A DNA stretch of 38,672 nucleotides, taken from NCBI GenBank assembly GCA_014360055.1, contig JACIYH010000002.1, positions 1-38,672 on the forward strand, read 5' to 3'. The first letter of the stretch is position 1. Every line of letters starts with the position of its first letter. This document shows, in pieces, positions 1-38,672 of this stretch. A program made the translations under genes and the position numbers. This DNA is from Bacillota bacterium (GTDB taxonomy: Bacteria > Bacillota > Sulfobacillia > JACIYH01). The notes under the pieces are model-generated. The model did no database searches, was not told the origin of the DNA, and saw only the letters and a program-made list of their open reading frames with translations.

Positions 1-74
1 GCGGGGTTAACTGTTGTCGGGGCCCGGCCGAGCCCGGGCTTCCGGCCGCTTTGCCTCTCTCCCACCTCCTGCTG

Positions 75-104
75 TCCGGGCCCCCAGCAAAGTGGGGGCC
101 CGGA
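75..104. repeat. perfect GC-rich inverted repeat (11-bp arms)
   Basis: Bases 75-85 and 94-104 are perfect reverse complements around an 8-base loop (AGCAAAGT). The hairpin has no U-tract on either side, so it is not a typical intrinsic terminator. It lies in the 218-base leader before the first gene, where a second, weaker CCCGGGG pair (134-160) is also visible. No other gene is seen in bases 1-218. It could be a replication, recombinase-binding or attenuation structure; its function is unknown. Confidence 0.6.
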
Positions 105-218
105 CCCTCCATCTTCCTCACCTCCTGGTTTCCCCGGGGCTTCTTCGATGGGGTCCCGGGGCATTCGCTCCTGCTCCCGTCCTGCGGGGGGCCTAGATTC
201 CGGAAAGGTGGTGTCCGC

Positions 219-911
219 GTGTCCGTCCTTGCTGCAGATGCTGTCTGGGTGCGCCCGCACCGCGTACCTCGGCCCTACCGGGTTTACACGTTCCCGCCCC
301 GCGACCGCGAGATCTTCGTGGAGCTGGCCGCCCTGGGCTTTGCGACCTCTTTGCAGATTCAGGAGATGTTCTGGGGCGGGTCTCACGCGGTGGGTAAGTG
401 GCGGGTGCAGCGCCTGGTGGAGTGGGGGCTTCTCTGGCGGTGGGAGTTCTCCAAGCCGTATCCTTCCGCCTACTCCTTGACGGCGCACTCCGCGCCTTTG
501 GTCGGCGCTGCGCCCCCGCCCGAGGGGCTGTTGCCGTCGGAAGTTTTGCGGGTGGTGGCGGCGACGGAGTTTTACGTGGGGCTGCGCGCCCTGGGCCGCG
601 AGTTCCGCTGGCGTCAGGGCCCGTGGGGTTTCGACCTGCACATAGCCGGGCGCGAGTACCGGGGGCTGTGTCCCCGGGCGCTGCCCGGGGAGGCTGAGGA
701 TTTCTGGATGTGGGTGAGGGCGCACGTGGGCGAGCGGCTGATGTGCGTGGCCTCTTCGGAGGAGGAGGCTGTGCGTCTTGCCCGTTCCTGTCCGGACGGC
801 CGGGTGCGGTACACGTGGGACGGCCTGCTTCACTCGGGGCCGCTTTCCCGGGCCTTCCGCCGCTGGGACGGTTCTGGGTTTGAGCCCGAGGAGGCAGTTG
901 TCTTCGCGTGA
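219..911 (+). CDS. replication-relaxation-like winged-helix protein of the mobile element
   Basis: A 230-residue protein. I chose the GTG at 219 because a GGAAAGGTGG ribosome site lies about 8 bases upstream and the codons before it look non-coding. Residues about 25-75 (FPPRDREIFVELAALGFATS, then IQEMFW and WRVQRLVEWGLLWR) look like a winged helix of the replication-relaxation type: a search for a target helix, then a wing region ending in a YSLT turn. The C-terminal half is a small mixed domain with no catalytic motif I recognise. Such proteins are common on integrative elements next to conjugation or recombination genes, which fits the recombinase 0.2 kb downstream. The family call rests on pattern only; it could be another MarR/winged-helix protein. 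Confidence 0.6.
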   Translation: MSVLAADAVWVRPHRVPRPYRVYTFPPRDREIFVELAALGFATSLQIQEMFWGGSHAVGKWRVQRLVEWGLLWRWEFSKPYPSAYSLTAHSAPLVGAAPPPEGLLPSEVLRVVAATEFYVGLRALGREFRWRQGPWGFDLHIAGREYRGLCPRALPGEAEDFWMWVRAHVGERLMCVASSEEEAVRLARSCPDGRVRYTWDGLLHSGPLSRAFRRWDGSGFEPEEAVVFA

Positions 912-965: not shown

Positions 966-1244
966 GTGTTGCGCAGAAGACTAGTCCTGGATGTAGAGTG
1001 CATGGGCGCTGACGACGGGCCTTTGCGCGAGGCGATACGTGTGTTGCTGCAGGCTGCGGCCGAGCGCGGGGAGGGCGGCGTACGGCGTCCGGGGGGTGGC
1101 GTTGGTGAGTTCGGAGGAGTTGAAGGAAGTCGTAGCGGTGTGCTATGCCCGGGTCTCGACGGACGAGCAGGTGGTGGGGATAGCGGAGCAGTTGCGCGAG
1201 TGCCGGGCGTTTGCGCTTTCCCGCGGGGCCACCCGCATAATTGA
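966..1244 (+). CDS. small hypothetical ORF overlapping the recombinase start
   Basis: A 92-residue reading frame with a very strong ribosome site (AAGGAGG, 954-960) five bases before GTG 966. The first 40 residues (MLRRRLVLDVECMG, then GADDGPLREAIRVLLQAAAE) look like a genuine short helical protein. The rest is Gly/Arg-rich and runs 140 bases into the recombinase in another frame, so it may be a chance extension. I recognise no family. It may be a small element protein whose translation is coupled to the recombinase; it could also mark a frameshift in this copy. Confidence 0.4.
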   Translation: MLRRRLVLDVECMGADDGPLREAIRVLLQAAAERGEGGVRRPGGGVGEFGGVEGSRSGVLCPGLDGRAGGGDSGAVARVPGVCAFPRGHPHN

Positions 1245-2781
1245 GGTGCATGATGATGGTATTCCGGGCGATGCCGTGGACCGCCCGGGGCTCAACCGGG
1301 TTCTTTCCCTGGCGAGGGCCGGAGGGGTAGATCTTTTTGTCGCCTGGGACGTGGACCGCCTGGCTCGTGATGTGGCGTTGCAGCTTGCCATTGACAGTGA
1401 GTTCGCGCGTCACGGCGTTCGGACGGAGTACGTTCACTTCGATAAGCAGGATACGCCCGAGGGGCGCCTGTTCTTTGTCATCAGGGGTGGATTTGCGGAG
1501 TTCGAGAGGGCGCTGATCACCCGCAGGATGCAGTTTGGCAAGCTGCGGGTGATGAAGGAGGGCCGGCTCGTACAGAATCCCCGAGTATTTGGCTACCGCT
1601 TTGTGAAAGGCGAGGGGACTCTTGAACCCGACCCCGACCAGCTGCCCCTGCTGCTGCGTATGTACGAGATGTGTGGCTCGGGGATGTCCGCGAGCGGCAT
1701 TGCTCGCGCGCTGAACGAGTCGGGTGTGTCCGGTCCCCGTGGCGGCCGGTGGACCAATACCACGGTGTCCCGCATACTGCGCAATCCGGTTTACTGCACT
1801 GGCGTGCTTCACATTCACCGCCATGATACTCGTGGGGTGCACAAGAACCGGTACATGCCCCTGGACCGCCGTGTGCGCCGCAAGGAGCGCCCGCGTGAGG
1901 AATGGATACCCGTCCGCGTTCCCCCTTTGGTAGATGTGGTGGTCTGGAACCGGGCGCAGGAGACTTTGGACCGCACGCGGGAGCGGCATGCCGGTACGCC
2001 GGCGACGTTCTACATGCTGTCGGGGCTGCTGCGCTGTGGACATTGTGGTTCACTGTTGCACGGCAAGCGTACGGTTGGAAGGCGCGGGGAGTACCGCTAC
2101 CACTACGTTTGCCGGCGGCGCGAGCCGGGTGTTCCCGGGGAGCCGAAATGTCCACTCCCCTACCTGCGTGCCTCTGACCTACACGAAGCCGTCTGGTCCT
2201 GCGTGCGGTCCTGGCTGGACCGTCCCGACCTTATGCTGGAGGAGGCCCAGCGGCTTGTTGCCGGTTCCGGCCGCGAGCGCCTGGAGCGCCAGCGCCGGGA
2301 GGCGGCGGAAGAGATGGCCAGGTTGTCTGGAGCCAGGCAGCGTTTGGTGGCAGCGCTTGCGCGCGGTCTGGTTTCCGTGGACGAGGTGGAGGGGGAACTC
2401 GAAAAGACCCGGAGCAGCCTGGAGCGTTTGGGGCGCCTGGTTGCGTCGCTTGACGCCCGGATTAAGGGGCTAGAGGCGCTGCGGGGTGCTGCCGAGGATC
2501 TGGCGGCATCCGCCCGCCGTTTGCTGGTCTCCGCGGGGTGCAACGAGGACCGTGTGCGTGCGCGTGTGGTGCGGGCGCTTGCCAAGGAGGCCCTGGTAAC
2601 GCTTCAGGATGACGGCACCGTACGGGTGCTTGTCAGGCTGCGCCTTCCCGAACTTGTGGCGGGTGCAGGACAGTGCTCTTCTTCTGGCGACGTGGAGAGC
2701 GGCTTTCCGGAAGGGTGTGCCGCCGGGGGCGGGCTGGATTGCCAGTTCGGTAGTCAATCAACAACTCTTATTGTCGAGTAA
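1105..2781 (+). CDS. large serine recombinase (site-specific integrase/excisionase)
   Basis: A 558-residue recombinase that would integrate and excise its element by a double-strand-break serine mechanism. The N-terminal resolvase domain (about 10-150) carries YARVSTDEQ with nucleophile Ser18 and the WDVDRLARD arginine motif. A recombinase domain follows (about 160-260; FGYRF, then MSASGIARALNESGV and RILRNPVYCTG). Next is a zinc ribbon (LRCGHCG, then CRRR and KCPL), and then a long Glu/Arg coiled coil (about 390-490) typical of large serine integrases. GTG 1105 was chosen for the GGGGGGTGG site 8 bases upstream; TTG 1102 and GTG 1096 are alternatives. The stop codon (2779-2781) lies inside what looks like chromosomal attachment sequence. 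Confidence 0.93.
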   Translation: MSSEELKEVVAVCYARVSTDEQVVGIAEQLRECRAFALSRGATRIIEVHDDGIPGDAVDRPGLNRVLSLARAGGVDLFVAWDVDRLARDVALQLAIDSEFARHGVRTEYVHFDKQDTPEGRLFFVIRGGFAEFERALITRRMQFGKLRVMKEGRLVQNPRVFGYRFVKGEGTLEPDPDQLPLLLRMYEMCGSGMSASGIARALNESGVSGPRGGRWTNTTVSRILRNPVYCTGVLHIHRHDTRGVHKNRYMPLDRRVRRKERPREEWIPVRVPPLVDVVVWNRAQETLDRTRERHAGTPATFYMLSGLLRCGHCGSLLHGKRTVGRRGEYRYHYVCRRREPGVPGEPKCPLPYLRASDLHEAVWSCVRSWLDRPDLMLEEAQRLVAGSGRERLERQRREAAEEMARLSGARQRLVAALARGLVSVDEVEGELEKTRSSLERLGRLVASLDARIKGLEALRGAAEDLAASARRLLVSAGCNEDRVRARVVRALAKEALVTLQDDGTVRVLVRLRLPELVAGAGQCSSSGDVESGFPEGCAAGGGLDCQFGSQSTTLIVE

Positions 2782-2867
2782 TGGCAGCCCACGGCGTGCG
2801 CCACGTCCTGCAAGCTCAGGCCCCGGCTCAGGCGAAGGCGGCGTAGCCGCTCTCCCATCGATTCCAA
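2754..2867 (-). pseudogene. truncated XRE-family HTH regulator, interrupted by the element
   Basis: On the minus strand a textbook ribosome site (AAAGGAGGTGAG) sits 7 bases before TTG 2867. The frame encodes 37 residues: MESM, then GERLRRLRLSRGLSLQDVA, then HAVGCHYSTI, then RVVD and a stop at 2754-2756. This is helix 1, helix 2 and the start of the recognition helix of a Cro/CI-type (XRE) domain. The usual continuation (S-x-I-E) is lost exactly after STI, at the serine-recombinase element end. The remaining 3' part is expected at the left end of the element, outside the window. If the element excises precisely, the gene would be restored. It could alternatively be a stable decayed fragment. 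Confidence 0.8.
2766..2780. other. probable attachment-site junction (attR-like)
   Basis: XRE similarity read from the right ends at the codons TCG ACA ATA (2777-2769, minus strand), and the recombinase frame reads in from the left and stops at 2781. The crossover must lie in or next to these bases. No second copy of the core is available in the window to define it exactly. Confidence 0.5.
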
Positions 2868-2927
2868 ACGCTCACCTCCTTTCACCTAATGAGTTATCTC
2901 TGGAGGAGTGAATTCCTGTCACGCAGG

Positions 2928-2937
2928 TGTATAAAAT
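2928..2937 (+). promoter_or_regulatory. candidate -10 region upstream of ireB
   Basis: TGTATAAAAT stands out in an AT-rich patch of otherwise GC-rich DNA, 125 bases before the ireB start. The best -35 match upstream (around 2908-2914, GTGAATT) is poor, so the call depends on the -10 and its TG extension. No gene is seen between 2868 and 3061. Confidence 0.4.
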
Positions 2938-3061
2938 TCGGCCATGATTCGACAAATGCGGCGGCCGAGCCCGGCCGACGGGCCACCGCCCGTGAAAGGA
3001 GTGCACGCACTGGCGGCGAAGACATAGTTGTTGCATCCTGGCAGGGGAGGGGTGGCCATCC

Positions 3062-3331
3062 GTGGCCGGAGTAGGCGATACCAGGGTATTCAGGCCCCAG
3101 GGTGACAGGCAACTCCAAGCGCGCGAGGTCCTGCTCAGGGTATACCGTGCCCTCCGCGAGAAGGGGACACACGATCCCGTGCAGCAGATGGTGGGATACT
3201 TGCTTTCGGGAGAGCCGGCCTACATCACCAGCTACCAGGATGCCCGCAACCTGGTGCGCCAGGTGGAACGGCACGAACTCCTGGAAGAACTGGTGCGGGC
3301 GTACGTGGCTGCCGCGGACAGGGAGAAGTAA
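3062..3331 (+). CDS. ireB: IreB family regulatory phosphoprotein (UPF0297, YrzL-like)
   Basis: An 89-residue member of the small cytosolic IreB/UPF0297 family. In Enterococcus, IreB is a substrate of the Ser/Thr kinase IreK that affects cephalosporin resistance. Hallmarks are LREK after a VLLRVYRA helix, then [26 protein letters not shown] and [12 protein letters not shown]. The GTG start follows GGGAGGGGTGG by about 8 bases. In many Firmicutes the order is alaS, ireB, ruvX, DUF1292, mltG; here DUF1292 and mltG lie 5.6 and 8 kb downstream with unrelated genes between. ruvX is absent from the interval and alaS is not seen upstream, where the mobile element sits. The N-terminus is slightly extended and lacks the usual Thr-Met-x-Phe start, so the phosphorylated threonines are not obvious. 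Confidence 0.9.
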
Positions 3332-10855: not shown

Positions 10856-11395
10856 ATGCGCTTTCTCGAATGCCTCCGTCCCCGGCTGCTGGTGCCCGCC
10901 GTGTTCGACATCGACCTGGACGGGCTGTGGCGGCAGGGCATCCGCGGCCTCATCCTGGACCTGGACAACACGCTGGTGGCGTGGGGGTCGGACTTCGTGA
11001 GCGACCGCCTGATCGCCTGGGTGTCGGGGGCACGCGTGCGGGGGTTCCGGTTGTGCGTTTCCGCTAACGCCCGCGCGGGCCGGGTGAAGCAGATGGCGGG
11101 ACGGCTGGGCATCCCCGGGATCGCCAATGCGGGGAAGCCGCGGCGCCAGGCCTTCCAGCGCGCCCTCCAGATCATGGGCACGGGACCCGGAGAAACCGCC
11201 GTGGTGGGAGATCAGCTTTTCACGGACATCCTGGGCGGCAACCGGCTGGGGCTGTTCACCATCCTGGTTGTGCCCCTCACCTCCCGCGATTTCGTGTGGA
11301 CCCGTATCGTCCGACATCCGGAACGCCTGGTGCTGAGGGCACTCGGCCTCACCCGGCCCACCCGAGCTGAGGGTGCCGGAACCCACCCGGGCTAG
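10856..11395 (+). CDS. yqeG: YqeG family HAD-IIIA phosphatase
   Basis: A 179-residue cytosolic HAD-superfamily hydrolase. Motif I is LILDLDNTLVAWG (nucleophile DxD at about 35), motif II lies in LCVSANAR, and motif III/IV in AVVGDQLFTDILGGNRLG (about 118-135). The N-terminus FLECLRPRLLVPAVFDIDLD is the YqeG hallmark. In Bacillus yqeG heads the yqeH-aroE operon; here it is alone after sigK and before the convergent mltG. The true phosphatase substrate is not established. There is no ribosome site before ATG and the promoter suggests a leaderless message. The convergent mltG gene ends at 11392, so the coding regions overlap by 4 bases. Confidence 0.9.
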   Translation: MRFLECLRPRLLVPAVFDIDLDGLWRQGIRGLILDLDNTLVAWGSDFVSDRLIAWVSGARVRGFRLCVSANARAGRVKQMAGRLGIPGIANAGKPRRQAFQRALQIMGTGPGETAVVGDQLFTDILGGNRLGLFTILVVPLTSRDFVWTRIVRHPERLVLRALGLTRPTRAEGAGTHPG

Positions 11396-38469: not shown

Positions 38470-38672
38470 TTGATCAAGACGGACGGGCTGTGCAAGCGCT
38501 ACGGGACGCTGACGGCCGTGGATGGTCTCAACCTGGAGGTGGGGCCGGGGGAACTGTTCGGGTTCCTGGGGCCAAACGGGGCGGGGAAGACCACCACCAT
38601 CCGCATGTTGACCGGGCTTCTGCGGCCCACGGCGGGGCGGGTATTCATCGGAGGGTACGATGTCCAGAGGGA
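38470..38672 (+). CDS. ABC transporter ATP-binding protein, N-terminal part (runs off the window)
   Basis: The first 67 residues are visible: [40 protein letters not shown] with Walker [11 protein letters not shown], then [20 protein letters not shown]. This is the typical start of the ABC-2/CcmA-like exporter ATPases of the DRA family, and a permease gene usually follows. TTG 38470 follows GGGGGGAAC by about 6 bases. Substrate cannot be told from this part. Confidence 0.9.

Follow-up and report, generated by a model that had tools for sequence, protein, structure and literature searches.

The window analysed here covers contig C54 (140,627 bp) from its first base to base 38,672; the genome is assembled in 141 contigs (G000; estimated completeness 99.8%). 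The right-hand part of an integrated element occupies positions 1 to 2777 and carries two genes on the plus strand. The first (219..911) encodes a 230-aa protein that had no match above noise in Pfam, PHROG and NCBIfam and is winged-helix-like by eye only. The second (1105..2781, GTG start assigned by eye) encodes a large serine recombinase of 558 aa in the integrated state. Its domains are those of this family: a resolvase catalytic N-terminus (PF00239, Resolvase; 9.3e-30), PF07508 (Recombinase; 2.5e-19) and a zinc beta-ribbon (PF13408, Zn_ribbon_recom; 1.3e-12). It is the sole PF07508 match in the genome. On the minus strand, a 37-codon fragment of an XRE regulator gene runs from a TTG at 2867 to a stop at 2754 and encodes a helix-turn-helix (Pfam HTH_31, E 5.5e-7). 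It consists of 33 native codons, followed by RVVD and a stop from element DNA, and is preceded by the Shine-Dalgarno sequence AAAGGAGGTG (2873..2882, minus strand). Divergent from this 5′ half lies ireB (3062..3331, plus strand; PF06135, 5e-30), the host gene at the right junction.

For comparison we used two genomes of the same genus, G001 and G002, in which the element is absent from the XRE site. Both harbour an intact XRE gene of 125 aa, likewise divergent from ireB, and the Shine-Dalgarno sequence is kept in both save one base in G002. Protein identity to these relatives ends after GCHYST(I/V), where the fragment reads GCHYSTI followed by RVVD and the stop, and G002 reads ...GCHYSTISAYERG... 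instead. DNA homology ends at window position 2772 (G001) or 2767 (G002), with matches only rightwards of about 2770. The initial annotation had let the plus-strand recombinase frame end at 2781, had placed the start of a minus-strand gene with a perfect ribosome site at 2867 and had seen XRE similarity lost after STI; these readings agree with the frame list, with the Shine-Dalgarno sequence before the TTG and with the alignment to the intact relatives, respectively. Its view of the 37-residue ORF as an interrupted gene is supported by the 125-aa gene found in place of this ORF in G001 and G002. The adjacency of XRE and ireB was found in this genus only, and a search for named relatives via the XRE protein returned one distant match only. 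Because the adjacency was seen in this genus only, a sporulation role cannot be transferred from known genes. The XRE-ireB intergenic region (window 2885-3060) is conserved across the three species. It contains TTGTCGAA and TATACA in promoter-like spacing toward XRE, less clear in G002, as well as acatagttgttgcatcc, which is invariant upstream of ireB in the three species.

The XRE 3′ half absent from the window lies on contig C24 of this genome (G000:C24:10958-11242), where it is 87% identical to G002 and adjoins the other end of the element. The two junctions, attL on C24 and attR in the window, have an identical 8-bp core, ATTGTCGA, located at 2770..2777 in attR, and a 17-bp att pattern covering the core matches C24:10952-10968 on the minus strand. 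When the flanks were joined at the core, an open frame of 131 codons resulted that is in frame across the join (...GCHYSTISAYERGTRNPSQ... / ...GCHYSTISAYERG...) and corresponds to the full regulator. Further out on C24, beyond several kb of other DNA, the DNA neighbouring XRE in G002, with the gene located next to XRE there, returns at 87% identity, which indicates that both flanks derive from the same locus. These results show that the XRE gene was split by integration after codon 33. The computed join further shows that recombination of attL with attR across the core would give back the 125-aa regulator with no scar. It had been proposed that the XRE gene is the attachment gene and that its 3′ part should be sought at the far end of the element; the two halves indeed lie at both ends in the same orientation. 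The accompanying prediction that precise excision would rebuild an in-frame regulator next to ireB holds at the sequence level.

Several further observations were made around the junctions. The DNA left of the XRE 3′ half (L025:11600-18900) is accessory DNA with a multicopper-oxidase-like gene that does not adjoin XRE in G002, and synteny with G002 returns beyond it. The frame of the XRE 3′ half at the left junction extends back without a stop to a GTG inside the element (L025:10751-11245, plus strand, 164 codons), from which a hybrid protein ending in the XRE C-terminal part could be translated. Dyad symmetry of the att sites did not convincingly exceed that of shuffled sequences for any centre in the core (best p 0.07, uncorrected). 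Circularisation would place the arms of an 8-bp inverted repeat, GGATTGCC / GGCAATCC, on either side of the core, 50 bases apart (window 2736-2743 and L025 ~10928-10935). GGATTGC in the host XRE arm resembles this repeat; the whole pattern may be due to chance.

The window does not reach the left end of the element, because contig C54 ends at window position 1 and the element continues beyond it. Its left-hand part is the reverse complement of G000:C24:1 to ~10959, which brings the visible element to at least 13.7 kb, to which an unassembled gap at window position 1 would add. Read in window orientation, this C24 part encodes an inositol-monophosphatase-family protein, an S-layer-homology (SLH) protein, a secreted-looking protein of 414 aa, a protein of 1,352 aa bearing fibronectin-III and PA14 domains, one of 426 aa that weakly matches WD40, and a protein with a NERD domain. 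The C24 genes are followed by the gap, the 230-aa gene and the recombinase, all of them co-directional. No phage capsid, tail or packaging genes and no conjugation genes were found in the visible 13.7 kb, although the gap may contain such genes. The match of one SLH-domain protein to a phage tail family covers its SLH stretch.

Two halves of a coding gene thus flank the element and rejoin in frame over a short identical core. This anatomy places it among the gene-intervening serine-recombinase elements. Its nearest counterpart is gin in gerE of Bacillus cereus ATCC10987, which is 28.6 kb long and has three serine recombinases and a 9-bp core (PMC5595907). Like gin, it is a serine-recombinase element with no phage genes seen that splits a gene for a small DNA-binding regulator, has the gene halves at its flanks and would restore the gene without a scar on excision. 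The core is 8 bp here versus 9 bp in gin. Sporulation-specific excision of gin is proven and needs GirX (PMC5595907), whereas the element described here has one recombinase found so far and no known directionality factor, and its excision is a prediction. The skin element in sigK and the SP-beta prophage in spsM are prophages or prophage-like, and their excision is developmentally timed (PMC5025042, PMC4191935). They too are large serine recombinase elements that interrupt a coding gene which is rebuilt by precise excision. In contrast to these, the target here is an XRE gene without an assigned role, and no phage gene was seen in the visible part of the element. Few elements split a host gene and are able to restore it, and the best known of these target genes for sporulation; with a regulator gene next to ireB, the range of targets becomes wider.

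Homologues of the recombinase occur in 76 of 154 genomes of the class, with an identity of about 40% at most over a full-length match. No close relatives were confirmed in viral contigs or the genome collection, and phage matches had less than 36% identity among the matches listed. The homologous recombinases end near the same conserved point as the integrated form, indicating that the 558-aa enzyme is of normal length. As it has all conserved domains, it is probably active when integrated, unlike the archaeal suicidal integrases.

The recombinase frame contains no stop before the core and ends across it with the codons GTC GAG TAA. As the frame crosses the att core, the stop codon is provided by host DNA. 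That the att site also cuts the recombinase gene had escaped the initial annotation. In the excised circle, which here is a computed join from one copy in an unfinished assembly, the frame would run 134 more codons into the left end of the element (L025:10555-10959, minus strand), yielding a fusion protein of about 691 aa. On either side of the core the frame stays open, which shows that attP, as reconstructed, would lie within the recombinase reading frame. A search with the 134-codon tail against the 154 class genomes gave many weak hits (top E 8e-5), and among the better ones at least nine, the top hit included, match the N-termini of full-length XerC/XerD-type proteins, where the SAM-like core-binding domain of these enzymes lies. 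We built a SAM profile from six XerC/XerD-type domains. The tail scored 26.2 bits, whereas the remaining 6,086 frames reached 10.9 at most; as the profile was made from hits to the tail, the score itself is partly circular and the comparison with the other frames is its useful part. The next-best frame, at 10.9 bits, carries a tyrosine-recombinase motif. The SAM-like stretch was not recognised in Pfam and NCBIfam.

We consider it likely that a large serine recombinase element split the XRE gene, that its attP lies inside the recombinase frame and that the recombinase tail is trimmed on integration. According to this explanation, the recombinase at 1105-2781 mobilised an element at least 13.7 kb in length, and recombination between its attP and a site inside the chromosomal XRE gene divergent from ireB split the gene after codon 33. 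In the circle form, the recombinase would have an extra C-terminal Xer-type SAM-like domain, and integration would swap this tail for the end of one codon and a stop from the host. Recombination of attL with attR would reverse this and restore the regulator scarlessly. Excision would probably need a directionality factor from the element. To our knowledge, directionality factors share no common sequence by which they could be found. As to the tail, one may speculate that it favours integration from the circle, or that it is dropped so that integration is not reversed.

The main alternative is a plain large serine recombinase element in a regulator gene, in which the SAM-like stretch is a fossil, left from a tyrosine recombinase gene that was caught at the left end of the element and in frame with the serine recombinase by chance. 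This is a serious contender, to which we give somewhat less than an even chance. The chance of lying in frame is one in three, and the SAM-like domain has no catalytic part. Moreover, the end of the recombinase before the core (2644-2769, 42 codons) does not score as coding. The arrangement was found in no relative, as no SAM-like domain was detected at the other end of the elements of homologous recombinases in up to 40 kb examined. The codon usage of the tail, on the other hand, is still that of an expressed gene: it scores +0.134 in this frame versus -0.17 or lower in the other five and lies above every wrong-frame control, and this holds for the whole stretch, the first 30 codons included. 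The domain, which begins 12-15 codons from the core, is also complete from its first helix. It lacks its own start codon, as there is no ATG, GTG or TTG before codon 44 and a TAG lies just upstream in attL. With no own start codon and a stop in attL before the domain, the simplest reading is that it would be made only as a recombinase tail, from the circle.

Other elements of the genus also bear on this alternative. A second serine-recombinase element of about 18.5 kb was observed in G001 (G001:C6, ~68.2 to 86.7 kb; L102:3110-3150, L028:3060-3130), where it splits a P-loop ATPase gene that is intact in G002. In this element, too, the recombinase frame runs over the right junction into the host sequence, but the frame beyond the junction is not coding-like, and read-through alone may therefore be chance. 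In a third element of the genus, the recombinase stops inside the element. Read-through is thus not rare in this GC-rich genus and is no proof by itself; the present case differs by the real domain beyond the junction. The ends of the second element, in G001, carry an 18-bp inverted repeat, TGTATCGACGTTTGTAAC, and the two parts of the ATPase gene share an imperfectly duplicated overlap of about 12 bp, an unusual feature for a serine recombinase.

Returning to the trimmed recombinase, we place the fused form at about even odds, because the tail is missed by Pfam and NCBIfam and the 42 codons before the core are not coding-like. A self-editing bacterial serine integrase, whose circle would make the SAM-like fusion and whose integration would trim it and split the regulator, with both states switching together, is an idea that we rate just short of that. 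Suicidal integrases of the SSV type are archaeal tyrosine recombinases that are cut in two and inactivated by integration, and integrases that split their own gene have been described in a review as exclusive to archaea (PMC8371274). As in these, attP would be located inside the integrase gene and integration would change the gene. Unlike them, the present enzyme is a bacterial serine recombinase and keeps all known domains, so that only an appended domain would be lost. In mycobacteriophage BPs, which shows integration-dependent immunity, attP lies in the repressor gene and the integrated form is C-terminally shorter (PMC4557955). Both cases would have attP in a coding gene of the element and a shorter C-terminus upon integration, but the shortened protein is the phage repressor in BPs and the recombinase here. 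We found no report of an integration-trimmed serine integrase in searches of an open-access library. Should attP truly lie within the gene of the recombinase, a different integrase would be produced from the circle than from the integrated form, and the reading frame of the element itself could determine directionality. Self-trimming also offers a testable lead on integrases with built-in one-way behaviour.

We also considered whether the element still moves. Along the branch of G000, the XRE 3′ half has 15 nonsynonymous to 20 synonymous changes compared to 7 to 40 for the other two branches combined (p = 0.006; approximate counts from pairwise distances of three sequences), and no comparable nonsynonymous excess was found for ireB on this branch. 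On these counts, constraint on the XRE 3′ half is relaxed in this branch, an argument against its being restored often; the excess change fits an XRE gene that was mostly out of use for part of the branch. In addition, only attL and attR were found in the assembly, with no copies of attB or attP. Both observations would fit a stranded insertion, in which the element is fixed, XRE is a two-piece pseudogene and nothing moves. We regard this as a sizeable possibility, but less likely than not: the recombinase frame is open with all its domains, neither XRE half has a frameshift or stop, and the core is still identical at both ends.

The initial annotation had suggested that the element is a possible genetic switch. 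Restoration of the gene in frame was supported at the level of the two junctions, but the switch itself is not favoured. In such a system, excision within the growth or sporulation programme of the host would turn the XRE regulator on, as with skin in sigK. Spo0A is present in the host genome, the restoration would be scarless, and known elements of this kind interrupt sporulation genes, including the regulator gene gerE (PMC5595907). The relaxed constraint and the lack of attB and attP in the assembly speak against it, as does the XRE gene itself, which has no known sporulation role and was found beside ireB in this genus only. A developmental switch of the skin kind is thus possible but not favoured, and we consider it unlikely.

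Tandem elements at one site, with the C24 end and the window recombinase belonging to different elements, are very unlikely: there is an unassembled gap at window position 1, and neither an overlap between the ends of C24 and C54 nor a third contig linking both was found, but this nearly complete genome has a single PF07508 recombinase and the assembly has two att sites, where a tandem pair would have three. Near the contig end, at window 74-105, we observed a perfect 13-bp inverted repeat with a 6-base loop (GTCCGGGCCCCCA / TGGGGGCCCGGAC), which is a possible cause of the assembly break.
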